Shown here: piece by piece, positions 1 to 15,566 of the stretch
Numbering within the stretch: the first letter of the stretch is position 1
How the letters are laid out: the number at the start of each line of letters is the position of its first letter
DNA from: Parapedobacter indicus
Lineage (GTDB): Bacteria > Bacteroidota > Bacteroidia > Sphingobacteriales > Sphingobacteriaceae
DNA: 64,000 bases
Direction: 5' to 3'
Assembly: GCF_900113765.1 (NCBI RefSeq)
Contig: NZ_FOQO01000002.1
Span: forward strand, 620,001 to 684,000
Translations under genes and position numbers: made by a program
The notes under the pieces: generated by a model
What the model was told of the DNA's origin: nothing
What the model saw: only the letters and a program-made list of their open reading frames with translations
Database searches by the model: none

Positions 1-751
1 ACTGGTCCCGCAATTTCCCCATGGCCCGGTCGATTCCGGTCAACTCCCCATAATAGTTCTTCAGGTTCTCCGGCTCGTCCGCGTACAGGTCTTTTAATTC
101 TTCCGAGGCCTGGTGGGGAAGATGGGGAGATCCCAGCCAGATAAACACAAGAAACGGTGATTCTGCCTGCATGGCCTTGTCAATATATTCCAAAGCCAGG
201 TCCACCGTTACTTCAGAACTCTCTCCTTTCAGGTGCACCGGTTCGCCGTTCTTGCTCATCCAGGGGTCGTTCTCATAAAAGTTCGCCGCTGCGCACCAGG
301 TGTCAAAACCCCGAGCCCCGGGGTTGGTCGGGTGATCCGAAGTGATCGATCCGATATGCCACTTGCCAAAAAAGCCCGTTTGATAGCCGCTTGCTTTCAG
401 GTGGTTAATGAAGCTTTGCTCTTCCGGCCTGAGGATGTGCCCCCAGGAAAAAACGCCCGTTCGCGTAGGGTACCGGCCCGTGATCACCCCCGCCCGCGTC
501 GGGGAGCAGACCGGTGCGGTATAAAAACGGTCCAGCCGCAACCCATTCCGTGACATGTCGTCCAGGTTCGGGGTTTGTACATTACTGTTCCCCCTGTAGC
601 CAACATCCCCATACCCCTGGTCGTCCGTCATCACGATGACGAAATTCGGTCTGGAAGGGAGCTGTTGACCCTTTACAAGACTCAAGGGAAAAATAAAAAG
701 GAATAGGATGGACAATTTGGTTGACAATACCTTGTGAATTAACTGTTTCAT
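1..751 (-). CDS. S1-family sulfatase, exported, 3' end cut by window edge
   Basis: Hydrolyses sulfate esters, probably on a glycan in the periplasm. I translated it from an ATG at 749-751; about 250 residues are present and the frame runs off the window. A Sec signal peptide covers about residues 1-28. The metal-binding pair lies in TDDQGYGD (D43, D44). CSPTR (C82-R86) is the canonical site whose cysteine becomes formylglycine. GKWHIG and SPHLPH supply further active-site residues. It starts 8 bases after the stop of the other sulfatase, so the two are almost certainly co-transcribed as the distal genes of the SusC/SusD operon. Substrate cannot be read from this fragment. No sulfatase-maturing enzyme is visible in the window, because the FGE-fold protein at 52 kb lacks the needed cysteines. 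Confidence 0.9.
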   Translation of the reverse strand, partial: MKQLIHKVLSTKLSILFLFIFPLSLVKGQQLPSRPNFVIVMTDDQGYGDVGYRGNSNVQTPNLDDMSRNGLRLDRFYTAPVCSPTRAGVITGRYPTRTGVFSWGHILRPEEQSFINHLKASGYQTGFFGKWHIGSITSDHPTNPGARGFDTWCAAANFYENDPWMSKNGEPVHLKGESSEVTVDLALEYIDKAMQAESPFLVFIWLGSPHLPHQASEELKDLYADEPENLKNYYGELTGIDRAMGKLRDQ

Positions 752-759
752 ATGATCGT

Positions 760-2259
760 TCAATATATGTAATTGTTTGTCTGAACAACTCGTTTATTTT
801 CCTCTATTGCTGAAGCGTGTTGAACCTCCCGCTGTTTCTGACTAAACGTTTCTCTTAGCTTCTGAACCAAATCTGGTCTGGACAGGGCAAGGTCATTTGC
901 TTCTGACACATCCTCTTTTATATTAAATAACTGCCAGGCGTCATTGGTATTCTCCCGAACTATTTTCCAATCCCCCCAATGTAAAGCATCAAATTCCCCT
1001 ATCTCGAAATACAAAGTAGCATGGGGTGAAAATGCTGTTTCTCCAAGAAGTACCGGTAAAGGGTTTTTCCCGTCAATAACACGATCTGCTGGTAGTTCAG
1101 CTCCGGATAATTTAACACATGCGGTAAAAAAGTCAGGAGACCACAGGCGGGTATTGATCAGGGAACCGGGTTTTATCTTATTGCCCCATTTTACGACGGC
1201 CGGGATACGTATTCCTCCTTCATACAACGTCGAGCTCCCTCCTCTTAGCGGTGTATTTGTGCTGAATTGAACGCCCATGATACGCTCTTGGACAGCCTTT
1301 ACATTAGCGCCATTATCTGAGTAAAAGAAAATAAAGGTGTCTTTTGATATGTCTAGTGAGTCCAATGTACTTAGAAGTCGGCCAATAGCCCTATCAATTG
1401 CCGTAACTACGACATGATACCGCATGATGGGGTCTTTTTCATCAGGCGAAATCCCATAGGGTTCAAAAGCAGCATCCGGTGCTTTGAAGATAGGGAGTTC
1501 ATCCGGTGGAATGTTTCGCTGCCCGGGCGAGTGCGGGGCATCAAATGGCAGGTAGATAAACCACGGCCTGGACATCTTTGCATTCGTTTTTATGAAATCG
1601 ATGGCTGCATTGGCAAACATATCTGTACTGTATTCACCTGACCGGCTAACGGCCTCCGTATTATGATACAGATCAGGATTGCCGGCATATACGTGTGTAA
1701 AATGATCCGCATTGCCTGAAACGATTCCTAAGTATTCATCAAAACCCCGGTCCGTAGGTCTTGAGCCGGGCGCAAAGCCGATATTCCATTTCCCGAAGGC
1801 TGCTGTTGCATAATTTCCCGGGCTGTTCTTGATTACCTGAGGAAGTAAAATTTCTGATTGACGCAGCCCAATCCCGTAATTGTCGGCTAAACCATTCATT
1901 TGATAATCCAGTTTATTCCGTTGCGGAATCCTGCCTGTCAATAGGGTAGCCCTTGACGTCGTGCATGTTGCTCCGGCTGTATAAAAGTTAGTCAGTACAG
2001 CTCCTTCTGCTGCGATTCTATCTAAATTGGGCGTAATAATGGGTGACCTTTTATTATAAAGTTTATAGTCACCGTACCCTACATTGTCGACTGTAATGAT
2101 GATGATGTTGGGAAAGGATTGTTCCAGATTTTCATTTGGAAAATCCAAATTTTTTGCTTTTTTATCATAGCCTTGGCCATATAATGCCATTGGAAATATA
2201 AAGTGGTATCCCATAAGCAAAATAAGGATCCGGGCTACATACAAACCTAATGTATCCAT
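760..2259 (-). CDS. Sulfatase-fold protein with degenerate active site
   Basis: A 499-residue alkaline-phosphatase-superfamily protein of sulfatase type with an N-terminal hydrophobic export signal (about residues 5-28). The overall order of sulfatase motifs is kept, but several key residues differ. The DD pair is D58-N59. The formylglycine site is C99-T-T-S-R103 with Thr where Pro or Ala is normal. The GKWHxG histidine is N159. The lysine of LRGGK is S342. H243 in APHSP and the SDNG metal ligands D315 and N316 remain. So the fold and part of the metal site are present but catalysis by the textbook mechanism is doubtful. It lies between susD (51 bases upstream) and an intact sulfatase (8 bases downstream). 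It may be an inactive glycan-binding relative, or a subfamily with different chemistry. Confidence 0.88.
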   Translation of the reverse strand: MDTLGLYVARILILLMGYHFIFPMALYGQGYDKKAKNLDFPNENLEQSFPNIIIITVDNVGYGDYKLYNKRSPIITPNLDRIAAEGAVLTNFYTAGATCTTSRATLLTGRIPQRNKLDYQMNGLADNYGIGLRQSEILLPQVIKNSPGNYATAAFGKWNIGFAPGSRPTDRGFDEYLGIVSGNADHFTHVYAGNPDLYHNTEAVSRSGEYSTDMFANAAIDFIKTNAKMSRPWFIYLPFDAPHSPGQRNIPPDELPIFKAPDAAFEPYGISPDEKDPIMRYHVVVTAIDRAIGRLLSTLDSLDISKDTFIFFYSDNGANVKAVQERIMGVQFSTNTPLRGGSSTLYEGGIRIPAVVKWGNKIKPGSLINTRLWSPDFFTACVKLSGAELPADRVIDGKNPLPVLLGETAFSPHATLYFEIGEFDALHWGDWKIVRENTNDAWQLFNIKEDVSEANDLALSRPDLVQKLRETFSQKQREVQHASAIEENKRVVQTNNYIY

Positions 2260-2310: not shown

Positions 2311-4071
2311 TTACTCAATGATCTCTAAGGGTGGAACATTTCGTTCTGTTCCGGAATAGCCTTTATTTTGATTGATAATCCCCAACGTATTTTCCGAGAT
2401 GACGGTTTCAGGGATGGGCCACAACGCATTATGTGGAGCGATTCGATACGATTGTTGTCCCCACGAAAAATTTATCTGAAAAAAGAGGTTTTTGGCCATC
2501 ACTCTATCAAAAAACCAGTTATTCTGACTAAAGTTTTCCAGATTATATCCGTTCATGTTCTGTCTCGCCATGATAAAAGATACTCTTACCAGCTCACCGT
2601 GCCTGGGTTCTTCCGTAGCCAACTCGCGGGCACGTTCATCAAAAATAAAATCAATGGTAACATCATTAGCGGTTATGGGCAGAGCACCCGCCCTTTCGCG
2701 GACTCTATTCAGATCCATCGCTGCCTGGTCAAGTTCATTTTTCCAGAAATAAGCTTCGGCCCTGATGAGGTATGTACCAGCCAAGCGAAAGATGTAAATA
2801 TCTCCGTTTCCTCCCCCTGTATTTTGCCCGGGGTAATAAGTCTTATAATGGGGAAAAGAAAAGCTATGCTGAAACGTATCAGCCGGAGTGGCAAAATTCG
2901 AACGGTCAACAGGTTTTCCAAAATCGGGAGAAGATGGATTGTTGTATAATAACTCATTCCATTCCACCCAATTCGCGTCGCTTCTTCTTAAGTCATGCTG
3001 ATAATCCCAGATTTCGTAAAGATAATAAGGTGTCAAACGGGCATTCGCATTTCCTCTCTTATATGTTTCGTATTGTTCACCCACATCTACCATCCCTGCA
3101 CCTCCGCTATGATCCCGGACTTTTGCATGCCACCAGGCCGGATTATATGCCTGGGGTAAAAATGAACCGACCTCCCGGGCTCCATCAGGGTCCTCAACCC
3201 GATCAATTACGCTGAATATCGTTTCTGTATTGGCGGAATTATTAATATTAGCCGGCCTAAAAAGGTCCCATATGACATTATATCCAGAGTTGCCCGCATC
3301 TTGTCCGAACCGCGCTGTCATCAATGCGTAAGGTCCTTCGATCACGTTTGTAGCTGCAGTTATTGCCTTGTCAAAATCTAGGTTAGCCAATGAAATCTTG
3401 GCTAATAAATGATTGCCGGCACCTTTGGTCGTTGCCCCCGGCTGCGCTGATACCGGAAGCCACTGCACGGCCCATTCCAGATCCGCTTGGATCTTGTCAA
3501 GTATCGCCCACCTGGAATGGGTATAAAAATCCAATTTCGGACCGGTTATTTCCTCCCCGATGAACGGTACATCGCCATAAGAGTTTACCAAGCGGTAATA
3601 CCAGTATGCCCGATAAAAATAAGCAGATGCCAGTAAGTGGTTCCTCGTTTCTTCCAGATCCCATTGTACCTCATCAATCCTGGAAATTAACACATTGGCA
3701 CTCCTTATGGAATTATAGGCATGCGTAAACAGCTTACCTGGATAATCATGGGTACCTCCATCTCCCGCCGGCGTTAATACCTGTGGAAAATCTTTTACTA
3801 CGGCATTTGCCAAGGCTCCCGGTACCGCCATATCTGACATAGCGTATTCATTCACCATCAGGGAGCGACCATTATAATGCTCCTGCTTAATATCTTTGCT
3901 CATCGTCACCACTAATGCTTCAAAGCCTTCTTCATTAATATAGACGTTTTCTGGTGCATAAAAAGAAAGAGGCTTGGGTTTCAGCCAGTCTTTTGAACAT
4001 GCTGTAAGAACTAAAAGCAAAAATAACAGCGGTATATTGGTTATTCCTTTCATGTCTTTATAATTTATCAT
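2311..4071 (-). CDS. SusD/RagB-type glycan-binding outer-membrane lipoprotein
   Basis: A 586-residue surface lipoprotein that captures glycan and lids the SusC channel. The lipobox LTAC places the lipidated cysteine at residue 25. The N-terminal SusD-like tetratricopeptide region (HLLASAYFYRAYWYYRLV) and the C-terminal region (RLAGTYLIRAEAYFWKN, then FIFDERARELATEE) are both recognisable, and the length is normal. The start is the ATG at 4071. A second ATG 18 bases on (4053) also gives a good lipoprotein signal and may be the true start. It begins 15 bases after the susC stop, so it is translated from the same message. Specificity cannot be told from sequence. The two downstream sulfatase genes suggest a sulfated polysaccharide. 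Confidence 0.95.
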   Translation of the reverse strand: MINYKDMKGITNIPLLFLLLVLTACSKDWLKPKPLSFYAPENVYINEEGFEALVVTMSKDIKQEHYNGRSLMVNEYAMSDMAVPGALANAVVKDFPQVLTPAGDGGTHDYPGKLFTHAYNSIRSANVLISRIDEVQWDLEETRNHLLASAYFYRAYWYYRLVNSYGDVPFIGEEITGPKLDFYTHSRWAILDKIQADLEWAVQWLPVSAQPGATTKGAGNHLLAKISLANLDFDKAITAATNVIEGPYALMTARFGQDAGNSGYNVIWDLFRPANINNSANTETIFSVIDRVEDPDGAREVGSFLPQAYNPAWWHAKVRDHSGGAGMVDVGEQYETYKRGNANARLTPYYLYEIWDYQHDLRRSDANWVEWNELLYNNPSSPDFGKPVDRSNFATPADTFQHSFSFPHYKTYYPGQNTGGGNGDIYIFRLAGTYLIRAEAYFWKNELDQAAMDLNRVRERAGALPITANDVTIDFIFDERARELATEEPRHGELVRVSFIMARQNMNGYNLENFSQNNWFFDRVMAKNLFFQINFSWGQQSYRIAPHNALWPIPETVISENTLGIINQNKGYSGTERNVPPLEIIE

Positions 4072-4086
4072 TGTTAACTAATGAAC

Positions 4087-7000
4087 TTAGAAAGTTACAT
4101 CCAGACCAAATGAATAAATCCGGGGCATTGGAGAGCCTCCCGATTCCGGATCCCAGTCTTCCCATTGATCAAAGCTATAGAGATTCCGAACAGCGCCAAA
4201 GATCCGCGTATTAGTCAAATTTCCCTTCTGAATAATCTTCGCTGGTAATTTATACGACACGGTAAAATCCTGAATTCTTACAAAAGAGCGCGGAAAATAC
4301 AGGTTGTATCCCCCGCTATAGGGCGCAGCACTAGCGGTTAATGAACCATATTTATTTGATGGATTAGCCGCGGTCCAATAGGGAACTGCACGCATTCCTC
4401 GTCTGTCATAAAGCTCGGTATTATTGTGTTTAAATTCGGCTATACTACCGATATGGCCAAGATCGGCACGAATAAAAATGGATGCAGAAAAGTTTCTTAA
4501 AAACGTAAAGTCATTTCTTAATCCAATCCGGTACCGGGGTTGCCTCCAACCTATGAATTGCTTATCAACTAAGGTTGAATAAACCTTATCCCCGTTCACG
4601 TCAACAGCCTTATAGTCTCCTGGTAAAAGTCCGTACAGGTTTGCTTCTTCTGCTTCACTTTCCTGCCAAACTCCTGTGATCTCGTAATCCCATACTCTGT
4701 CGATCGGTTGTCCGATAAACCATTGATTGGAAATATCTGAAATCTCCCGTCTTACTATTTCCCCATCTATCTCCACTTCTTCAAAATCTCCGAAAAGCCT
4801 TTTGATCTTATTTCGATTTAAGGAAAAAACCAGGTTTGATCTCCATTGGAAGCTTTCCCTATTGATATTTTCCGTCGTAATGCCTAATTCAATTCCCCTG
4901 TTTTCCAACTCACCTAGGTTTGTTGTAATATCATCAAAACCTGTTATGCGTGGCAGGTTCCGCTGCATCAACAGATCCAAGGTCGTCATTTGATATGCAT
5001 CGAGGGTAGCGTTGATCCGATTATGGAGTATGCCCAGATCAAAGCCCAGATTATAAGCTTTCGTTTTTTCCCAGACCAAACTGGGATTTGCCAAAGAGCT
5101 GTTAAATACCCCAACCAACACTTGCGAACCGTTGGAGTATAAATTTTGAGATAAACGTGCCAGTGCAGCGTATCGCCCGATTTCCCGGTTTCCATTAATG
5201 CCCCATGATAGTCTTAATTTCAGATTGTTAATCAGGTTACTTGAGAAAAATTTCTCTTCGTCGATCTTCCAGGCAAATGCTAAAGCAGGGAAAGTTGCCC
5301 TTGGGTTCTTTTGACCAAAAGCCGAATAACCATCCCTTCTTAACGAAGCGGTTAGTAGGTATTTATCTAATAGTGTATAATTTAGTCGGGCCATCAGGGC
5401 GTCGCCTGTTGATTCGTTATCATCATTTCTGATTACATCGTTAGCGGAAAATTGTAGCCCATGAAAGGAAAGGTTTTGGTTAGGACTGAAATCTTCCCCG
5501 CTTTGAAAAGAAGACCAGTTTCTGAACTTCTCAATATTGTAAAGGAGCGTTACGTCGAAATGATGTAAGCCAATCTTTCTATTCCATTTAATGAGATTAT
5601 CTACCATCCATTCATACATCTGGGAGTCCTCACGGGTACCATACCCGTTAATATGAGTTCGCCCTCCGTTAATCGTTCTCGAATCCCAAAAATTATGATC
5701 TTTGGTGAACGACAATCTGGGTTGGTAGGATAATCGGTAATTAATGCCAAAGGGAAGTTTTAATTCAGAATAAATAACACCAAACAGACTATTTGTGGTA
5801 CTTAATCTATCTTGGTATTTATGATTGATCAGTGGGTTTTGACCTCCCTGGTAATCGTTTGGGAACCATTTTAACGTACCGTCTTCATTATACATGGAAC
5901 CGAAGGGGCTGGAGATCAGCATTTGTTCCACATTTGCCGCCACGGCACTTTCATCCCGATTAGCAAACTGCGTGTTAACTCCAACCGTTAACCAGTCAGT
6001 AATTTCCGCATCAAGATTCAATCTGGAACGTATCGTGGAAAATTCATCTCCCACGATGATACCTTCATTATCAGTATAACCTAAAGACCAGTAATATTTA
6101 GCCCTTTCTGATCCTCCGCTCAAACTGATATCATAGTTCTGTCTAAGCCCTTTTTGTATAACCTCATCATACCAGTTGACACCGGTCCCGGCTATGTAAT
6201 TTTCAACTTCAGCTGGAAAGAAAAGGAGTCGGTTAAGCCATTCTTTTGTGATGTCCGCGTTGGGATTGTTATTGTAGTTTAACCACTCCTCTTTACTGAT
6301 ACCTGAAGGAAGATCGTCCGGATTATGAAAGTAATAATCAACAGTGTTGGGGTTCGTCTGGATCAATAAATCCCTTCTGAAATCGGTATATTCTTTTGCC
6401 GTTAACGCCCGGATGTCTTTATTGGTAACTTCCGTAATACCTATCGTGGATTGAAAATTGATTGACGGCTTACCCGTATGGCCTTTTTTTGTCGTAATGA
6501 TGATAACGCCGGAGGCCGCCCTTGAACCAAATACAGCTGCAGAGCTCGCATCTTTCAAAATATCAATTGCCTCAATATCTTTCGGATTTATGTCTGCTAA
6601 GCTACCGTTGAAAATCACGCCGTCCAATACGATTAATGGTTGTGTACTAGCGCTTAATGATGTTTGTCCTCTGATTTCCAATGAGCTCCCTCCTTCAGCA
6701 GAAGTAGCTTGATTCGCATTAAAGCCAGCTACCGTACCTGTAAGCATCTCGCTTAGCTGCGTCATGCTTTGATTTTCGTACGTTGTTGCATCGACACGTG
6801 TAACCGACCCTGTTAAATCACTTTTCTTTTGCGTGCCATAGCCAACTACAACTACTTCTTCTAAATCGCTAACTGATAAATTCATTACAATGTCTATAGT
6901 TTGTCGGTTTCCTACGGGCTGTTCCATAGTGTTGTAACCAAGCATGGAAAACATCAACGTACCATCATCTGCAGGCATATTTATACGGTAGCGACCATTG

Positions 7001-7497
7001 GCGTCAGTTTTGGAAGCTATAGAAGTACCTTGGATGATTACCGTTACCCCCTCCAGCGGTTGACCCTCTTCGTCGGTTACAAGACCGGTAATCGTTTGTT
7101 CCTGTCGCAATGCTGCTGAGGTTCTAGCAAGGGTTGGTAATTCTTTTAGCGTTATGGCGATAGATTCACCACTGATTTGGTATTGCAATGGCTGCTCTTT
7201 GAATAAAATAGCCAAGGTTTCGTCTACGCTTTTATTCTTGACTCGGATGGTGACAGGACTGGCCTGATTTAGCTCCTTTTCGTCATAAATAAACGTATAA
7301 CCAGACTGCCTGCTGATCTCAACCAATACTGTTTTCAGCCGAATTTGGTGATGATTTAAGCTAATGCGTTGCGCATGGACCTTAGCCAATGCAACCGTAA
7401 TGGATGCAAAAAAGATAATTAGGGTCAATTTCATGGCTAAATAGATTTGTGGCGATACCGGATCATCAAGGTGGTATCGAAGTCTTTCGCTTTTCAT
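4087..7497 (-). CDS. SusC/RagA-type TonB-dependent transporter with N-terminal STN domain
   Basis: A 1136-residue outer-membrane receptor that imports oligosaccharides using TonB energy. After a 21-residue extension comes the signal MKLTLIIFFASITVALA. Then follow an STN signalling domain (about 45-105), a CarboxypepD_reg-like domain (about 135-215, GLVTDEEGQPLEG), the SusC hallmark EEVVVVGYGTQKKSDLTGSV, a plug with NPKDIEAIDILKDASSAAVF, and a 22-strand barrel ending in an aromatic C-terminus. An STN domain is the part that talks to an inner-membrane FecR protein, and fecR and its sigma gene lie immediately upstream, so this transporter probably senses its own substrate. It is separated from fecR by 147 bases that contain a hairpin and presumably the ECF-sigma-dependent promoter. 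The N-terminal extension before the signal is common in sphingobacterial SusC proteins. Confidence 0.96.
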   Translation of the reverse strand: MKSERLRYHLDDPVSPQIYLAMKLTLIIFFASITVALAKVHAQRISLNHHQIRLKTVLVEISRQSGYTFIYDEKELNQASPVTIRVKNKSVDETLAILFKEQPLQYQISGESIAITLKELPTLARTSAALRQEQTITGLVTDEEGQPLEGVTVIIQGTSIASKTDANGRYRINMPADDGTLMFSMLGYNTMEQPVGNRQTIDIVMNLSVSDLEEVVVVGYGTQKKSDLTGSVTRVDATTYENQSMTQLSEMLTGTVAGFNANQATSAEGGSSLEIRGQTSLSASTQPLIVLDGVIFNGSLADINPKDIEAIDILKDASSAAVFGSRAASGVIIITTKKGHTGKPSINFQSTIGITEVTNKDIRALTAKEYTDFRRDLLIQTNPNTVDYYFHNPDDLPSGISKEEWLNYNNNPNADITKEWLNRLLFFPAEVENYIAGTGVNWYDEVIQKGLRQNYDISLSGGSERAKYYWSLGYTDNEGIIVGDEFSTIRSRLNLDAEITDWLTVGVNTQFANRDESAVAANVEQMLISSPFGSMYNEDGTLKWFPNDYQGGQNPLINHKYQDRLSTTNSLFGVIYSELKLPFGINYRLSYQPRLSFTKDHNFWDSRTINGGRTHINGYGTREDSQMYEWMVDNLIKWNRKIGLHHFDVTLLYNIEKFRNWSSFQSGEDFSPNQNLSFHGLQFSANDVIRNDDNESTGDALMARLNYTLLDKYLLTASLRRDGYSAFGQKNPRATFPALAFAWKIDEEKFFSSNLINNLKLRLSWGINGNREIGRYAALARLSQNLYSNGSQVLVGVFNSSLANPSLVWEKTKAYNLGFDLGILHNRINATLDAYQMTTLDLLMQRNLPRITGFDDITTNLGELENRGIELGITTENINRESFQWRSNLVFSLNRNKIKRLFGDFEEVEIDGEIVRREISDISNQWFIGQPIDRVWDYEITGVWQESEAEEANLYGLLPGDYKAVDVNGDKVYSTLVDKQFIGWRQPRYRIGLRNDFTFLRNFSASIFIRADLGHIGSIAEFKHNNTELYDRRGMRAVPYWTAANPSNKYGSLTASAAPYSGGYNLYFPRSFVRIQDFTVSYKLPAKIIQKGNLTNTRIFGAVRNLYSFDQWEDWDPESGGSPMPRIYSFGLDVTF

Positions 7498-7644: not shown

Positions 7645-8793
7645 TTATTCTATTGTTATAACCCTCCTTCCTTCTACGTTAAACTTCAATCCGGTTTTCA
7701 ATTCGATGGCCTGGAGTACTTCCCGTAGCTTGGCATCTCGCGGGATGATGACCGACAAACGTGTCTCACGTCGTGGCCACATCGTCACTTCCACATCATA
7801 CCAACGCTCCAGCTGTTGCAGCAGTTCGACTAAATCTGAGTTGCTAAGCACATAGATACCATCTTTCCACGAAATCGCTTCCATCACATCTACCTGCCTC
7901 ACCTCAATTTCATTGTCTCGCAGAACTGCCTGTTGCCCGGGCATGAGGGTTGTGGCGGATCCACCGTTGCTCTTCTCCAATCGGACACTTCCTGTGACCA
8001 ATGTTGTCGTAATTGCCTGTTCGTTTTGATAAGCTTTTACATTAAATGATGTACCCAGCACAATCAGCTCCTGTTCTTGGCTCGTCACCACAAATGGATG
8101 TGAGGCATCAGGTACAATTTCAAAAAACGCCTCGCCAGTTACTTCCACCTCCCGTCTGTCTCCTGTAAAAGCCGTTGGATAGCGCAACACCGACTCAGCA
8201 TTCAGCCACACTTTACTACCATCGGGCAGCGTTACCTGATACTGTCCCGCCCGCGGAGTCGAAAGGGAAACGTATTGTACCTCTTTCGCCTGAACGATGG
8301 CCGTACCATCTACATATACGATCCCACCGCCTTCCATAGCGATCCCTGTTTGGTCTTCGCTCAATGCAATGGCCGGGCCGTTGTCTAACACAAGTTCAGC
8401 GCGGTTTTTGCCGGGTTCTATTTCCTGTGCACGGGGCGCTGTGACCGGGCCTTCCGAAACCGAATCTCCAAAGAAAATCCAACTGCCGATACCCGCTATC
8501 AGGAGACCCGAAGCAGCTATTCCCAATAGCATACGGTTACCACGGAGGTGTTTCGGACGGCGGCGTGTTTTTCGTTTGAGCGATTTTCTTACCCAACGAT
8601 CTACCTCGTCTATCTGTACTTGATGCTCATCGATATCCAATTCAGTATCCAGCTCATTTTCAATCAATGCTTTTAGGGCGTCTCCCTCGTCATCGATATC
8701 AAAATAACTAAGCAGAGCTACCAAATCTTCTTGGGTATAGTTACCACTAAGGTATCTGGCAAAAATGTACTTAATATGTTCCCGACCTTCCAA
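7645..8793 (-). CDS. FecR-family anti-sigma factor
   Basis: A 382-residue inner-membrane anti-sigma factor that holds the adjacent ECF sigma factor inactive until SusC reports substrate. Cytoplasmic part residues 1-85, with a basic stretch (KRKTRRRPK) before a single membrane segment at about 87-108. The periplasmic FecR domain covers about 170-300 (LPDGSKVWLNAES, VTGEAFFEI), and a C-terminal DUF4974-like STN-contacting domain about 310-382 ends in LKFNVEGRRVITIE. The start codon must be TTG at 8791-8793: the frame has a stop seven codons upstream and the next ATG would delete the cytoplasmic domain. It follows the sigma gene by 38 bases and precedes susC by 147 bases. Confidence 0.93.
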   Translation of the reverse strand: MEGREHIKYIFARYLSGNYTQEDLVALLSYFDIDDEGDALKALIENELDTELDIDEHQVQIDEVDRWVRKSLKRKTRRRPKHLRGNRMLLGIAASGLLIAGIGSWIFFGDSVSEGPVTAPRAQEIEPGKNRAELVLDNGPAIALSEDQTGIAMEGGGIVYVDGTAIVQAKEVQYVSLSTPRAGQYQVTLPDGSKVWLNAESVLRYPTAFTGDRREVEVTGEAFFEIVPDASHPFVVTSQEQELIVLGTSFNVKAYQNEQAITTTLVTGSVRLEKSNGGSATTLMPGQQAVLRDNEIEVRQVDVMEAISWKDGIYVLSNSDLVELLQQLERWYDVEVTMWPRRETRLSVIIPRDAKLREVLQAIELKTGLKFNVEGRRVITIE

Positions 8794-8831
8794 AACAAGT
8801 GCTTTGTAGGTTTATACAATCCTGAAAGGAT

Positions 8832-9431
8832 TTATGGGTACATAGAAAATAAAAAAAACAAAATTGATATGGAAAATTCCGCGTAGCTTGCTATTCTTTT
8901 CCTCAGAAATTGATTTGCTCGCTTGATATGGGTGTGTATGGTACCGATTGATATATTGAGTTCCTTGCTAACTTCGTCGTAGCTTTTCCCGTGGAGTTTG
9001 CAAAGTGTATATACGATCCGTTGTTTAGCGGGCATCCGTTGCAGTATTTCGCGGAAACGTTGTTCGTTTTCCTTCTCCAATAGATGGGTTTCAATATGTT
9101 CGTAACCCGCTTCAGTCGCCGGATAAAGGTAGGCTCTTACTTTCTCATCGTGAACCGCTCTCTTAAAGATATTATACGCATTGTTCGTTGCGATCTTAAA
9201 CAGATAGGCTTTAATGGGTTTATGCTCGTCTACACGTTCCCTGTGTTCCCATAAAGCCAAAAAAGTATCCTGTACGACCTCCTTAGCCAGCTCGGCAGAT
9301 TTCAGCAAACGGAGTAAATGCCCGATGAGTTGCTGGTAATACGCATTATAAATAGTTTCAAAAGCTGTTTCATTCCCCTTCCGTAGCTGCTGAAGTACAT
9401 ATTGTTCATTGATGGGCGTTAATCTTTTCAT
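8832..9431 (-). CDS. ECF RNA polymerase sigma factor (Bacteroidota sigma-70 family 1 type)
   Basis: A 199-residue extracytoplasmic-function sigma factor that should direct RNA polymerase to the susC promoter. Region 2 covers about residues 24-95 (ETAFETIYNAYYQQL, EVVQDTFLALWEHRE, AYLFKIATNNAYN). Region 4 covers about 125-180 with the helix-turn-helix KSYDEVSKELNISIGTIHTHIKRA. The last 18 residues (from SYAEF) are strikingly hydrophobic, a tail also seen in other sphingobacterial FecR-paired sigma factors. It sits directly upstream of fecR and only 20 bases after the stop of the esterase gene, so it may also be transcribed with the upstream catabolic genes. Confidence 0.95.
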   Translation of the reverse strand: MKRLTPINEQYVLQQLRKGNETAFETIYNAYYQQLIGHLLRLLKSAELAKEVVQDTFLALWEHRERVDEHKPIKAYLFKIATNNAYNIFKRAVHDEKVRAYLYPATEAGYEHIETHLLEKENEQRFREILQRMPAKQRIVYTLCKLHGKSYDEVSKELNISIGTIHTHIKRANQFLRKRIASYAEFSISILFFLFSMYP

Positions 9432-9451: not shown

Positions 9452-11836
9452 TTACATCGGTTCGTCAACACACGACGATATCCAATGAATCATTCCCTGT
9501 TTCTGCTCGCTGGTAAACCGGTTAAAACCCAGCGGTGTTTCTAAGCTGAGTGCGTCCTCCGCACCATATAATTGATACACACCCCGCGCTTCTTCCACAC
9601 ACTTCCGTAGCGCATCGGGATTGACATGCCGGTCTAGCGTCGGCGAGTTTATCCATACAGGTCTGGGTGCAACGGCTGCAATAATTTCGTTGAAATCTGT
9701 TGGGATATGATCTTCTTTACCGACAAAAAAACCAAGCCTGGGAAGCAAGCCATGCAAATGAGAAAACGCCAAAATACCCTCACGCTGCCCATCCCCCTGC
9801 ATATCTCGAAACGATGTGAAAGCACTGACCGCGGCAACTCCGGCTAGCCGATCATCCAATGCCGCTGTAAACAGGCCGACGGTTCCTCCCAGGGCATACC
9901 CAGCGATATAGATATGATCGGAATCGATAAAATCCAAGCTTTCTGCTGCATCAATAGCCGCGCGTGTATCCGCAACCATTTTACCGAGCTTTGACCACCG
10001 TGGATATCGCTCATAAAATAACGTACCCTCGTCAATCCGTTCTCCGTACCCTAACAGATCAATTGCCAGCACAGCGACTCCCTTCGAAAGGAATCCCTCA
10101 AACAGGTCGCGGTATCTCATCCCGAATCCCGTATTTGCATAGTCGTGTAAAAAAATAACAACCGGCAACTTTGCCCGGTTTCCGAATTTCATACCACCGG
10201 ATTCGTCAACGGGGTAGTACAGTGAGGCAAAAAGGTTATCGCCTACAGCGTTCGAGTAAGGCCCCAAACTTTGCTTTTTACCATTGCGAACGACCGGTCG
10301 ATCAATGAGTTTACTCAGGTAATCTTCCGCGGGCACCAATTGCTTCAACGAGTCGCCTTTCAAACCCGGAGGCTCTTCTCCCAACAGCCATTGAACTCGC
10401 TCCCGGACTTCTTGCTTCGTTTGATTCCAATCCAACGTATTTACGAAGGTCTTCTTTTCATCCAACAAACCAGGAGCCTGTGGAAATTGGTCGGGATTAA
10501 TTCGTTCCCCGCTAAGTTCCTTCCATTTATCAAAAGAATAATCGTATACCAGCTTGTTTTCCCACGGAAGTTGTCTGCGGCTGAATCGGATGTCAAGCCA
10601 GTCTATATAGGCTTCAATATCTCTTGCGGAAACGCTATGTCCGCCGTCGCGAAGGCGGACACCCACATTGTTTGGCGCACCTAAAAACGCGTATACGCGT
10701 TTTACAGACTTAAAATTTTGCTCGATCGCCCACGGATCGCCCCCGCCACCTTCTCTTACGGAGGAACTCATCAGTAAGGCATTGGGAGCTATCAGCGCCA
10801 TCAATGAGTTCTGATCGATGGGAAGTTGGTGCTCACGTCCCGCATAAAAGCGCAAACGAGGGTGCAACCACTGCGGCCGAATGGAGCACAGGAAATCGAT
10901 GGATTCGTTGTCATACCGTTCGTCCGTATATCGATAAGGAATCTCTCCACCTGTGCCTCCGCTGCTGCTAATCACCGCTGTAATTCTGGGATCAAACGCC
11001 GCAGCAAATAGCGATTGCTTTCCATTTCGTGAGTGGCCTGCCAGTGCGATCTGTTGTTTGTTGACCTCTTCGCGCGTGTATAGATAGTCAACTGCTCGTT
11101 GCGCTCCCCAAGCGCGAGTCATCAAGATGCTCCAATCGTATTGGGGATATAATTTTTGATACGACTCCGTATCGTCGTTGATATCCGCACCAGCATATAG
11201 ACATCCGATATATCCCCGTCGCACTGCAATTTTAGCCCAGACCCGGTGATTCCATTGTGACATAAAAACCGGGAATGGTCCTTTGCCGGGGGGTATCAAC
11301 AATTCAAGGGTAAGCTTAGCCGCTTCTGACTCACCAAACCGCAACTCCACCTGCTGTATTTTCACACCGTTCTCCGATCGCTCCGATAAGATGTGTGCCC
11401 GTAAATTATTGGGAGGAGGGGGAAACGTCCCCGAAAACAAATGTTTCACTTGCTCACCTATCCAAGCCTTCTTTTTTTTCCAATCGGCTAGGCTTTCAAT
11501 CCGTTGACTTTGTCCGTTTTCTTCCCACATCAAAGGATCAGGTAAAAACGCATTGACGGGCAACGTATCAAAGTCCGGAGGTAATTCCCCGGTACGTTGC
11601 TGCCAATCATCCCACGTACTATCCCGATAGCTAAGCCTTACGAAAGAAGAAAATACGTCGCGCGGCCTATTCGTTGGATGCGGATACCGAATTAATCGCA
11701 GTTGCTCCAAATACGCTTTCCGTTTGGTTGTATCGGTCTGCGCACACACTTCCCACGCGTTCTGTAAGAACACAACAAGCAGTGTCAGCTTAAAAATTGC
11801 CGATTTTAATTGATAAATGTATAGTTGGCAAACCAT
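9452..11836 (-). CDS. Two-domain alpha/beta hydrolase, CE15 glucuronoyl-esterase-like first half
   Basis: A 794-residue exported protein with two tandem alpha/beta-hydrolase domains. The hydrophobic export signal spans about residues 10-33. Domain 1 (about 100-430) has the nucleophile motif GHSRNGK (S269), LPIDQNSLMALIAP and RDGGHS with a likely catalytic His, matching the carbohydrate esterase 15 pattern of 4-O-methyl-glucuronoyl methylesterases. Domain 2 (about 470-790) resembles acetyl-xylan-esterase or dienelactone-hydrolase-like enzymes but its nucleophile elbow reads GYALGG: codon 648 is GCC (Ala) where Ser is expected. Domain 2 therefore looks non-catalytic. The gene lies 36 bases after the Gfo/Idh gene and 20 bases before the sigma gene. 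Probable role: removing ester groups from a uronic-acid-bearing glycan. Confidence 0.85.
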   Translation of the reverse strand: MVCQLYIYQLKSAIFKLTLLVVFLQNAWEVCAQTDTTKRKAYLEQLRLIRYPHPTNRPRDVFSSFVRLSYRDSTWDDWQQRTGELPPDFDTLPVNAFLPDPLMWEENGQSQRIESLADWKKKKAWIGEQVKHLFSGTFPPPPNNLRAHILSERSENGVKIQQVELRFGESEAAKLTLELLIPPGKGPFPVFMSQWNHRVWAKIAVRRGYIGCLYAGADINDDTESYQKLYPQYDWSILMTRAWGAQRAVDYLYTREEVNKQQIALAGHSRNGKQSLFAAAFDPRITAVISSSGGTGGEIPYRYTDERYDNESIDFLCSIRPQWLHPRLRFYAGREHQLPIDQNSLMALIAPNALLMSSSVREGGGGDPWAIEQNFKSVKRVYAFLGAPNNVGVRLRDGGHSVSARDIEAYIDWLDIRFSRRQLPWENKLVYDYSFDKWKELSGERINPDQFPQAPGLLDEKKTFVNTLDWNQTKQEVRERVQWLLGEEPPGLKGDSLKQLVPAEDYLSKLIDRPVVRNGKKQSLGPYSNAVGDNLFASLYYPVDESGGMKFGNRAKLPVVIFLHDYANTGFGMRYRDLFEGFLSKGVAVLAIDLLGYGERIDEGTLFYERYPRWSKLGKMVADTRAAIDAAESLDFIDSDHIYIAGYALGGTVGLFTAALDDRLAGVAAVSAFTSFRDMQGDGQREGILAFSHLHGLLPRLGFFVGKEDHIPTDFNEIIAAVAPRPVWINSPTLDRHVNPDALRKCVEEARGVYQLYGAEDALSLETPLGFNRFTSEQKQGMIHWISSCVDEPM

Positions 11837-11871: not shown

Positions 11872-12861
11872 TTAACCAAGCTCTGCCAATGCCACTTTGG
11901 CACCACCTCGGGCCTTACTGAGATCAGCGGCCGTCATAAACCGATAAATCTCCAACGTTTCGTTTGCATCCACTGGAGATTGTCCTGAGTCAAAAAATTC
12001 AATAATCTTGCTCAATAATGTATCGTATCCCTTATAGGGGCCCAACGTCAGATCTCCCTGCTCTCCATAGGCTGTGCCGCCGTATGTATGCTTACCTGTA
12101 CGCGTACCCCGGAACGTACCGATACGACCGTCCGCCCAAGTGCCCACCACGATATCCGTACCTTCGGTATGGACACGACTTAGTTCTTTGCATCCAACTC
12201 CCATCAAGGCAATCAGCGATTCCACACCATGGATTCCATACCAAAATAAATCAGGATGATGAGGTTCAATCGTCGCCGGGCTATACGTATCCGCTCCTAA
12301 GATTTTACCTATTTTACCGTTAATAGCGTCCTGAATCGTGCCCATGTACCGCAGCGATGACGTGGAAAAAACCGGAACGTTACGCTTTTCAGCCAAGTTG
12401 TAGATTTTCCGAACATCTTCGAATGAAGCCGCTACCGGCTTATCAATAAACACCGGTTTCCCCGCTTCGATAACTTCTATGGCCTGTTGCAACCTCGGAT
12501 TACCGTCGTTGGTCTCCAACAATACATAGTCAACTTCTGCTAACAACGTGCGAATGGAGTCAACAATCTTCACTCCATAGGGTTTAATTTGCTCAAGGTA
12601 ACCAGGGATTCGGCTGGTGCTGACTTCAATCGTACTTCCGTATGGGTAAGCCGCCGTCACCCGATAACCTGAATTGCTTAATGCACTTGAAGAATCGTTT
12701 AATCCTTTCGTAAATGCCATACTGTGTGACGTATCCAATCCAATAATCCCAACTCGCTTTCCTGATGCAGGCATCTGACCACTGACCGCCTTTGCATACC
12801 CTGCCATTCCAATACCGGCGGCCGCCAGTGATGCATTTGTGATAAATTTTCTTCTATCCAT
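11872..12861 (-). CDS. Gfo/Idh/MocA-family oxidoreductase with Tat signal
   Basis: A 329-residue NAD(P)-dependent sugar oxidoreductase. The N-terminus MDRRKFITNASLAAAG is a twin-arginine export signal, so it works in the periplasm with a prebound cofactor. The Rossmann part starts at VGIIGLDTSH (about residue 37) and the catalytic-lysine motif reads IDKPVAAS instead of the usual EKP. GIHGVESL (about 218) lies in the substrate pocket. It is short for the family, which usually runs 350-450 residues. Flanked closely by the BNR gene (27 bases) and the esterase gene (35 bases), it belongs to the same operon. Substrate unknown; oxidation of a sugar released by the neighbouring enzymes is inferred. 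Confidence 0.88.
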   Translation of the reverse strand: MDRRKFITNASLAAAGIGMAGYAKAVSGQMPASGKRVGIIGLDTSHSMAFTKGLNDSSSALSNSGYRVTAAYPYGSTIEVSTSRIPGYLEQIKPYGVKIVDSIRTLLAEVDYVLLETNDGNPRLQQAIEVIEAGKPVFIDKPVAASFEDVRKIYNLAEKRNVPVFSTSSLRYMGTIQDAINGKIGKILGADTYSPATIEPHHPDLFWYGIHGVESLIALMGVGCKELSRVHTEGTDIVVGTWADGRIGTFRGTRTGKHTYGGTAYGEQGDLTLGPYKGYDTLLSKIIEFFDSGQSPVDANETLEIYRFMTAADLSKARGGAKVALAELG

Positions 12862-12888: not shown

Positions 12889-14271
12889 CTATTCCTTTTC
12901 TCGATTCGACCTGTGAATGCGCAACATCGTATCAAATTTTGTATAATGGTTGTAGTGTCCTGTCATCCATAAAACAACCGGCGGTCTACCTGCTGGTAAT
13001 TTTACGGCATAAGGCCGCACATTATGGGTGGATGAATGAACGGTGAGCGGAGTGGTGTCCCATCCGGTCGTCCCTTTCTTCCAGTGCTCCAATTCAAAAT
13101 AGCCACCTATTTCACGCGATAGATAGACACTACTTACATCGCTGTGGTCAATGACAAGACCTCCCGAATAATGCGGTTCCCTAACCGCTTCGCCTGGCGC
13201 CACTCGCGGCATCCACCCCCCCGCTTTGCAAATTTCCTCATCCATCCATCGGTCGCCGTCCCACGAGGCGTAGTGATATCGATGATCCGTGTCTTCCGGA
13301 AATGTCGTATAACAAACAACCGGTTTGCCGTCGTCGCCCAAAGCCACGTCAGCTATCCAACTCCGCACTCCGTTTTGCTTCCCATCGTAAACTTTGTCAA
13401 CTGATTCCCGCAAAATAGGCAGTTGATCCATCTTTGTTAGGAGGCGACCATCGGTTTGATAAAATACTCCTTTTTCATAATACATATGATAAACCGAATT
13501 GGTCGGCTCCACACCGGGATGACCATCTGTGAAAACCAGGTCAATTCGGCTAAGGCCGTCTGAGCTGACTTTTAGATACGGGCGATTTTTGGTCCCTTTA
13601 CTCGCAATGAGCACGTGGGGTTCGCTCCACGTATCGCCTTGGTCGTCGCTATATGCAAAAGTTTGCTGCCAATCGCTCCCTCTCCAAAAGACATAAATCC
13701 GGTTTTGTTCCCCGGCTAGCATAACCGGATGAGAATACGTGATGCGATCTCCCCCAAATGGAATGATCCGTTCGTCGCTCCACTCACGAATATCTGCTGG
13801 CCTTTTACTTTTGCGCATAAAAAAACGCCCATTATGCTCCGTATAAAAAACAAGGATATGGCCGTCCGGAAGAATAAGTATCGAAGGTACATTGTGGTCA
13901 TCCACTTGTAATCTTTCGTGCAGCACAAACGTAGTTATCTCATGCGTCAGAAAATCATTGGCGCCGATGACCACATCTCCCTGACTGCTGATGTATCCAA
14001 AATAGACTTGTTCATGTGTCCCTGCATGGTAAACGGCTCTTGGATCAGAAAACCAGCACCATGCTGCGTCATGAGAAACGATTGGATAATCTTCTCCCGA
14101 GCGCTGAGCAAATCCGCTGACGGCGCTTAAAAGCAGAACCGCAAATAGCAACATCGTTAGAGCCGGTTTCCCCGCCATCGAAGTTCCTTTACCGGAGATC
14201 ATTGGAGAGGCGACCATTCCAACACCTAATACGGAACTACTGACAATAAACTTTCTCCTAGAAATGTCCAT
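12889..14271 (-). CDS. BNR_4 beta-propeller protein with stacked Tat and Sec signals
   Basis: A 460-residue exported protein of the BNR_4 (seven-bladed propeller) type. Recognisable blades include DDHNVPSILILPDGHILVFY, TYSHPVML, FAYSDDQGDTWSEPHVLI and VALGDDGKPVVCYT. This fold includes several polysaccharide lyase families, among them ulvan lyases, but I cannot confirm catalytic residues. The N-terminus is odd: residues 1-30 form a Tat signal (MDISRRKFIVSSSVLGVGMV) and residues 37-55 form a second, Sec-type signal (ALTMLLFAVLLLSAVSGFAQ). The mature domain follows directly. An original start may have been Met32 (14178) or Met40 (14154), with the Tat segment joined by deletion of an upstream gene. 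First gene of the esterase-sigma operon, 215 bases downstream of the LacI gene. Confidence 0.82.
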   Translation of the reverse strand: MDISRRKFIVSSSVLGVGMVASPMISGKGTSMAGKPALTMLLFAVLLLSAVSGFAQRSGEDYPIVSHDAAWCWFSDPRAVYHAGTHEQVYFGYISSQGDVVIGANDFLTHEITTFVLHERLQVDDHNVPSILILPDGHILVFYTEHNGRFFMRKSKRPADIREWSDERIIPFGGDRITYSHPVMLAGEQNRIYVFWRGSDWQQTFAYSDDQGDTWSEPHVLIASKGTKNRPYLKVSSDGLSRIDLVFTDGHPGVEPTNSVYHMYYEKGVFYQTDGRLLTKMDQLPILRESVDKVYDGKQNGVRSWIADVALGDDGKPVVCYTTFPEDTDHRYHYASWDGDRWMDEEICKAGGWMPRVAPGEAVREPHYSGGLVIDHSDVSSVYLSREIGGYFELEHWKKGTTGWDTTPLTVHSSTHNVRPYAVKLPAGRPPVVLWMTGHYNHYTKFDTMLRIHRSNREKE

Positions 14272-14486: not shown

Positions 14487-15566
14487 TCAATTTTTATAAA
14501 ACTCAAAATTTTCTTTTGTGATAATATCAATCGGCATATATTGCTCCTTTTCAATCTTCCTATCTGCCACCACATGCTGAAATAACGACATAATACCCAA
14601 ATATCCTTGCTCCTCGGGTTTTTGACCAATAAGAAAATCAATCGTGCCATCTTTTAAATAGTTGATATTTTCTTCAGACAAATCATATCCAATCAGGATT
14701 TGATGGTGCAGTGCGGTGCCGCGAAGATATTTTGCAACGCTCTTTACTCGGGAGTTGGTAACAAAAAAGGCATCTATATCCGTATGCGTTTTTAGGAAAT
14801 CATCCAGGAGACTACTGACAGACTCATCGGTTGTGTTGGTGATATCTATCTTTTCAATGGTAATACGGGCTTCGGAAGTGTTGGTATCTTCGATGTAATG
14901 CCGAAAACCTTCTTCTTTACGAAGCAGGTGGTGATAGGCATCGATTTCCTTGGATATATTGATGATCAACACTTTTCCCTGCTTCAATCCAAATCGAACG
15001 AGTTGACCGGCTTGGTAGCCACTCTTATATAAGTGAGGACCAATGTAAGTAAGGCTGTTCTTGCTTGGCACGTCAGAATTGATAAATACATAGGGAATTT
15101 GCCGGTCTTGACAGATCGAAGCAAAATTAGCTGCTTCTTCAATAAACGAAGGAGCCACAATGATGCCATCATAATTATCTTGGGCGATGCTACTGACATG
15201 TTTGACAAACGTACTTTTATCATTGAGATCAAACAGATATCTATCCAAGAAAATACCATATTGTTTGATTTCCTGATAGCCACGCTCTAGACCGTCCAAT
15301 GATGCTTTCCAGTAATCGGTTTCCCGGGCATTGGGAATTAAAAAAGCAAAGCGATTCGTCTTCTTCGAGGCCAGCCGACTCGCCAGAATATTAGGCTGGA
15401 ATCCAATTTCTTTAATAATCTCATTGATTTTCGCCCGGGTAGTCTCCGAGACACCTTTCCGATTGTGGATAACACGGTCAACCGTAGCTATTGAAACGTT
15501 AGCCCGTCTCGCTATTTCTTTCACGCCAGAAAGATGTCCCGTTGGTTGTCTTTTTTTCAAGCTCAT
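14487..15566 (-). CDS. LacI-family transcriptional regulator
   Basis: A 359-residue sugar-responsive DNA-binding regulator. The LacI helix-turn-helix spans residues 15-67 (VKEIARRANVSIATVDRVIH, then the hinge region GFQPNILASRLAS). Residues 72-345 are a periplasmic-binding-protein-like sensor domain of the ribose/galactose type (TRFAFLIPN-like start, DNYDGIIVAPSF, LIGYDLSEENINYLKDG). It is the first gene of the minus-strand PUL, 215 bases upstream of the BNR gene, so it probably controls the esterase/oxidoreductase genes in response to a breakdown product. A LacI protein together with an ECF sigma/FecR pair gives the locus two layers of control. The start ATG is fixed by a promoter box 8 bases upstream. 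Confidence 0.94.
   Translation of the reverse strand: MSLKKRQPTGHLSGVKEIARRANVSIATVDRVIHNRKGVSETTRAKINEIIKEIGFQPNILASRLASKKTNRFAFLIPNARETDYWKASLDGLERGYQEIKQYGIFLDRYLFDLNDKSTFVKHVSSIAQDNYDGIIVAPSFIEEAANFASICQDRQIPYVFINSDVPSKNSLTYIGPHLYKSGYQAGQLVRFGLKQGKVLIINISKEIDAYHHLLRKEEGFRHYIEDTNTSEARITIEKIDITNTTDESVSSLLDDFLKTHTDIDAFFVTNSRVKSVAKYLRGTALHHQILIGYDLSEENINYLKDGTIDFLIGQKPEEQGYLGIMSLFQHVVADRKIEKEQYMPIDIITKENFEFYKN

Follow-up and report, generated by a model that had tools for sequence, protein, structure and literature searches.

A conserved clade of S1-type sulfatases with an altered sulfate-binding subsite, represented in Parapedobacter indicus

A minus-strand gene of Parapedobacter indicus encodes a 499-amino-acid protein with the S1 sulfatase fold that differs from canonical sulfatases at three active-site positions, and all three positions are replaced in every member of the clade to which the protein belongs. 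The gene (the target) lies at positions 760 to 2259 of the window, by which we mean the whole 64,000-nucleotide stretch analyzed (contig NZ_FOQO01000002.1, positions 620,001 to 684,000), and was assigned by ORF reading, a Pfam match, and a tree. Comparison with its relatives indicates that the altered active site is real, clade-wide, and maintained and that the target is a member of a small, ancient, well-maintained sulfatase branch, not a lone decayed gene. The evidence leans slightly toward a re-tooled but still catalytic formylglycine enzyme of sulfated-glycan loci.

Three replaced active-site positions and the clade that shares them

The open reading frame begins with ATG and has a signal-like N terminus, as seen in the ORF listing and translation. 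The product matches the Pfam Sulfatase family (PF00884) with an E value of 1.8e-44 and 152.7 bits, against a gathering score of 25. The AlphaFold model has moderate confidence (pLDDT 74, falling below 50 around residues 341 to 347), and its best Foldseek matches were S1 sulfatases, S1_19 among them. Direct reading gives the motifs TVD-N59-VGYGD, C99-T-T101-S-R103, FGKW-N159-IG, and LRGG-S342-STLYEGG and finds C99, R103, K157, H243, D315, and N316 intact. An earlier reading of this DNA, made from the letters alone (the sequence-only reading), had reported N59, T101, N159, and S342, and each was confirmed at its number. Its view that the frame and signal are whole and the gene maintained agrees with the ATG-initiated, 499-residue frame and with purifying selection across the clade.

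We compared the 42 sequences of the clade with an outgroup of 47 canonical sulfatases, in which a position was counted as conserved when at least 41 of the 47 had the same residue. There are 49 such positions, and exactly three of them, all in the active site, have a different residue in every one of the 42 clade members. At position 59 (minus-strand codon at 2083 to 2085), the Asp that partners the active-site Lys in canonical sulfatases is Asn in 42/42; at position 159 (1783 to 1785), the His of GKWH is Asn, again in 42/42; and at position 342 (1234 to 1236), the active-site Lys, found in 47/47 outgroup sequences, is replaced by Gly in 39 members, Arg in 2, and Ser in 1. The serine is private to the target, the feature of the clade being the loss of Lys. 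These changes are absent from the 47 outgroup sulfatases, and none of the 42 clade members has the S subsite in its canonical form (an Asp pair, the His of GKWH, and the active-site Lys).

The Cys and Arg of the C/S-x-P/A-x-R motif are present in all 42 members, and the third position (residue 101; codon at 1957 to 1959) is Val in 28, Ala in 12, Thr in 1, and Pro in 1. Because this position varies within the clade, T101 was rejected as a signature residue; the proposal that four residues had changed together thus holds for 59, 159, and 342 (42/42) and fails for T101, which is private to the target. The two most divergent members (L097 and L098) already have all three changes, and L098, the most divergent, combines them with a canonical CTPSR. 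Among the fetched sequences, none is an intermediate that has some but not all of these changes. Two nonclade sulfatases at first seemed to have Asn in place of the GKWH His, but realignment did not reproduce this, and it was not used.

Such changes might be mechanism-neutral, ordinary S1 variation in what is simply an uncharacterized numbered SulfAtlas subfamily, and the clade may already have such a number. Among 4,058 S1 sequences, position 59 is Asp in 76%, position 159 is His in 81% (with Leu, Gly, and Asn as alternatives), position 101 is Pro in 87% and Ala in 9%, and position 342 is Lys in 96% (PMC5066984). A single change at 59 or 159 is thus not rare, and the intact fold and other motifs of the target would fit ordinary variation. 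However, a fixed loss of the Lys is rare, the three changes are fixed jointly and strictly kept, and neither N59 nor a loss of Lys342 is ever seen in canonical relatives from the same genomes, which makes ordinary variation very improbable. No description of the fixed triple change was found in the literature searched.

The 42 sequences (the target, its paralog, and 40 others) form one clade with a support of 100, which is the group sharing the substitutions that the sequence-only reading had proposed to look for, although only three of the changes are common to all. The clade spans the Bacteroidota, Verrucomicrobiota, and Planctomycetota, with relatives in Cyclobacterium, Membranihabitans, Saprospiraceae, Bacteroidales, Cytophagaceae, Verrucomicrobiota, and Planctomycetota at 51 to 68% best-segment identity to a two-paralog query. 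This two-paralog alignment was the query that found them; a single-protein scan of genome contigs, for which the pattern set was too specific, found none. A search among 60 near-relative genomes at 1e-80 gave no match beyond the host's own genome, indicating that the gene is patchy. In whole-genome sampling (E ≤ 1e-120), clade genes were present in 2/395 Bacteroidota genomes, 4/387 genomes of the Verrucomicrobiota sample, and 15/392 of the Planctomycetota sample, each count including the genome on which the search was centered. The clade is therefore rare and patchy, yet it is inherited vertically in one planctomycete lineage, in which nine genomes have the same flanking genes.

A second altered sulfatase lies two genes downstream of the target (L031:12878-14293, in fetched neighboring DNA of the host genome) and is 66% identical to it, with N59, N159, and no Lys342 but with CTVSR. 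In Membranihabitans maritimus (L032), the order of the window recurs as altered, canonical, altered, and canonical sulfatase, the altered copies being at L032:7896-9350 and L032:10806-12236. The target joins the first of these copies in the tree (support 99), and the paralog belongs to another, distinct group (support 96), together with the second copy. This pairing indicates two subtypes that are older than either species and have been kept side by side. Subtype A, that of the target, has a longer loop before residue 342, which is Ser or Arg; in subtype B this residue is Gly.

Retained residues and comparison with characterized enzymes

D58, C99, R103, K157, H243, D315, and N316 are present in 42/42 clade members. 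C99 (codon at 1963 to 1965) is the presumed formylglycine precursor, D315 and N316 (1312 to 1317) are the metal ligands of the SDNG motif, and H243 (1531 to 1533), in an APH motif, corresponds to the catalytic acid of PsS1_19B. That acid is H233 (PMC6923384), which aligns with H243 of the target when the numbering is reconciled (C77 of the paper is chain index 73, so H229 of the chain is H233). Sixty of 437 positions are invariant in the clade, in which mean identity is 0.59 and pairwise identity reaches down to 0.43. The chance that seven random positions would all be invariant is P = 6.7e-7, a value that measures constraint, not catalysis, since active sulfatases likewise conserve these seven residues. 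Residue 167 (1759 to 1761) is clade specific, being Arg in 41/42 members and Lys in 1, and is a candidate replacement positive charge; R171, H189, N183, and N249 are further clade-specific, near-invariant residues.

The clade has dN/dS values of 0.03 to 0.16, mostly below 0.1 (0.03 to 0.16 for the Cyclobacterium genes and 0.06 to 0.12 for the planctomycetes), compared with 0.02 to 0.09 for the sulfatases that accompany the clade genes in the Cyclobacterium loci; dS is saturated for several pairs, and all of these values are rough. Slightly higher values than those of canonical neighbors are as expected under a different or a weaker constraint alike. They would also be in keeping with a pseudoenzyme, that is, a sulfatase fold without turnover that binds or presents sulfated glycans or helps neighboring sulfatases. 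The same reading could account for the loss of both a 96%-conserved Lys and a nucleophile-contacting His, for a third CxxxR position other than Pro or Ala in 29/42 members, and for the location of the Bacteroidota genes, nearly always beside canonical sulfatases. However, the Cys, Arg103, Lys157, His243, and the metal ligands are invariant over three phyla, down to 43% identity, and nine planctomycete genomes and two Verrucomicrobiota loci have the gene without a nearby sulfatase, so there is no dependence on a neighbor. Such strict retention of the CxxxR cysteine would be unexpected in a lineage limited to binding, which is an argument and not a proof. Because the nucleophile Cys, Arg103, His243, and the metal ligands are strictly conserved, the suggestion of the sequence-only reading that this might be a sulfatase-fold binding protein is weakened, and we consider a pseudoenzyme rather unlikely. 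No published precedent for a sulfatase pseudoenzyme was found in the literature searched; the OCTIN paper, considered as one, concerns an FGE-domain protein and no sulfatase.

The best PDB matches in both sequence and fold are the S1_19 carrageenan sulfatases (PsS1_19A/B and ZgCgsA; 6bia, 6prm, and 9hh2-4), which are about 27 to 30% identical to the target and have the Cys, Arg, Lys157, His243, and Asp/Asn ligands in common with it. They have DD, GKWH, the active-site Lys, and His at 167, whereas the clade has DN, GKWN, no Lys, and Arg167; the solved S1_19 structures are canonical at all three signature positions, as read from alignments. Given about 30% identity and different active-site residues, the clade appears to lie outside S1_19. 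The classical arylsulfatases (Pseudomonas aeruginosa AtsA/PAS and human arylsulfatase A) share the fold, nucleophile, metal ligands, and acid His, but their Lys375/302, Asp14/30, and His115/125 are replaced in the clade. The canonical sulfatases of the host operon (L031:14313-15764 and L031:11423-12856) have the fold of the target with DD, CxPxR, His, and Lys intact. Neither the PDB nor the literature searched yielded a characterized active subfamily that shares these three residues, and no clade member has a solved structure in the PDB.

The choline sulfatase, phosphonate monoester hydrolase (PMH), and EfAS subgroup consists of active formylglycine enzymes in which position 59 is not Asp, as in the clade. 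In this subgroup, the Lys is kept and bonded to Gln, and ligand 316 is His, compared with Asn in the clade. The active-site Lys hydrogen bonds residue 59 (Lys309-Gln15 in choline sulfatase and Lys337-Gln13 in RlPMH; PMC5870055), and in EfAS, Lys324-Gln21 takes the place of the classical Lys-Asp interaction (PMC12421950). The active Gln enzymes name the first Asp, the second Asp, and the His as ligands, so a loss of metal binding via N59 is unsupported; to treat N59 as the loss of a required metal ligand was an over-reading, as Asp is found in only 76% of S1 sequences and Gln occurs in active enzymes. PMH and EfAS are superfamily relatives with altered residues at these positions and are promiscuous (PMC12421950), and the S subsite of the clade is altered exactly at the sites of sulfate recognition and leaving-group protonation. 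Both observations would fit an active formylglycine hydrolase that acts on another group, such as an ester of phosphate or phosphonate, or a sulfate transferase. However, the active-site Lys, which the clade lacks, is retained in phosphonate hydrolases (RlPMH Lys337; PMC5870055), and the two canonical sulfatases in the same Bacteroidota operon point to a sulfated substrate, so this alternative is quite unlikely. The clade members do not appear to be PMHs, as they have no Lys342 and have Asn316 instead of His.

Genomic context in the host and in other phyla

The window begins inside an operon, which continues into L031. Its order on the minus strand is an ECF-type sigma factor (8832 to 9431) and an anti-sigma factor (7645 to 8793), together spanning 7645 to 9431; a SusC-like TonB-dependent transporter with an N-terminal STN-like region (4087 to 7497); a SusD-like protein (2311 to 4071), which is the first gene upstream of the target; the target; an intact sulfatase; the second altered sulfatase; a further canonical sulfatase (L031:11423-12856); a Gfo/Idh/MocA oxidoreductase; and an esterase. 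The sigma factor, anti-sigma factor, SusC-like, and SusD-like products were named by reading their sequences. Gaps among the four sulfatase genes are tens of bases or less. The intact sulfatase that had been reported to adjoin the target is the canonical gene immediately downstream (2 to 763, minus strand, cut by the window edge and complete as L031:14313-15764; ORF reading and Pfam), with the motifs TDDQGYGD, CSPTR, GKWHIG, and LRDQKGSLHEGG.

On the far side of the SusC/SusD block, also on the minus strand, are a two-domain esterase with a glucuronoyl-esterase-like domain (9452 to 11836; PF22244), a second Gfo/Idh/MocA oxidoreductase of the GLDTSH type (11872 to 12861), a BNR_4 repeat protein (12889 to 14271; PF15892) that could be a polysaccharide lyase or a binding protein, and a LacI-family regulator (14487 to 15566). 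The 794-residue esterase has a second alpha/beta-hydrolase domain and full-length relatives near altered sulfatases in two Membranihabitans loci. The two host oxidoreductases (window 11872 to 12861 and L031:10193-11200) are 57% identical, and relatives of the GLDTSH protein have clade genes as neighbors both in L031 and at a Verrucomicrobiota locus. In the latter (L096:2885-4198), the GLDTSH oxidoreductase is directly beside the altered sulfatase, is 45% identical, and has a GDSL-lipase-like sequence fused in front.

The host locus looks like one for a sulfated polysaccharide, possibly with uronic acid or xylose; this is a predicted substrate. Sulfatases matched about 75 stretches of the host genome, many in tandem pairs, which suggests that the host is a specialist on sulfated polysaccharides. 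The genome also encodes an FGE with the GSFxCxxxYC motif of human FGE and both human-type active-site cysteines.

In the Bacteroidota, the altered sulfatase is nearly always beside canonical sulfatases, and in Cyclobacterium a GH10-family gene adjoins the cluster. The context is fixed in nine related planctomycete genomes (L120 to L128), with helicase-like and DNA-polymerase/exonuclease-like genes adjacent and no sulfatase within about 9 kb of the altered gene; two Verrucomicrobiota loci also have no neighboring sulfatase. Dependence on an intact neighboring sulfatase as a general rule is rejected by the planctomycete and some Verrucomicrobiota loci, and the association is specific to the Bacteroidota. 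Outside the clade, a Terriglobia locus has tandem alkaline phosphatase (AP)-superfamily proteins (L067:3-2057 and L067:2061-4163) in which Thr occupies the nucleophile position and a DHG motif is present.

Proposed mechanism and its implications

The catalytic reading that we favor is that of a secreted S1-type subfamily whose S subsite would have been rebuilt in a single event on the stem lineage of the clade. The K342/D59 pair became Gly/Asn, and the third change, GKWH His to Asn, hits the His that contacts the nucleophile; the nucleophile Cys, Arg103, Lys157, the metal ligands D58/D315/N316, and the acid His243 have been kept. As the lost Lys and the Asp replaced by Asn are partners, two of the three changes remove a single Lys-Asp pair, and with this charge pair gone the site has the same net charge as before. 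These two points and the retained acid H243 favor catalysis, as do the invariance of the seven retained residues, the low dN/dS values, the occurrence of Gln at position 59 in active sulfatases, the limited (81%) conservation of His159 across S1, the FGE of the host, and the fold match. The lost Lys speaks against it, as this residue is 96% conserved in S1 (PMC5066984) and is half of the general-acid pair (PMC5870055). So does the third CxxxR position, where the FGE and anSME consensus is Pro or Ala (PMC10154612) and most members have Val and the target Thr, as far as the motif can predict modification.

In the proposed cycle, the host FGE would convert Cys99 (CTTSR) to formylglycine, and the hydrate of this residue would attack the sulfur atom of a sulfated sugar. 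Protonation of the departing sugar would fall to His243 by itself, with no His-Lys pair, and the hemiacetal would give up its sulfate with the help of Asn159 and other residues. That Arg167 makes up for the missing positive charge is a guess. In the Bacteroidota, the altered enzyme would act with the SusC/SusD system and the two canonical sulfatases on a sulfated polysaccharide. We hold the full arrangement only tentatively and think it doubtful in its details: a Lys-less, Asn-substituted S subsite with His243 as sole acid and Arg167 as anion holder, whose target group may not be a plain sulfate ester.

Automatic annotation will label the proteins of this clade as plain sulfatases, whereas they would either cut sulfate or a similar group differently or have become binding proteins. 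With three S-subsite changes, a kept nucleophile, and a spread over three phyla, the clade amounts to a natural experiment that can show which elements of the formylglycine mechanism are truly required. If its members are inactive, they would be a long-lived family of sulfatase pseudoenzymes. If they are active, the active-site Lys would be dispensable once its Asp partner goes too. The S subsite of S1 sulfatases is termed invariant in reviews (PMC10154612 and PMC12280919), and the Lys-less arrangement, if true, would be the first exception to it.
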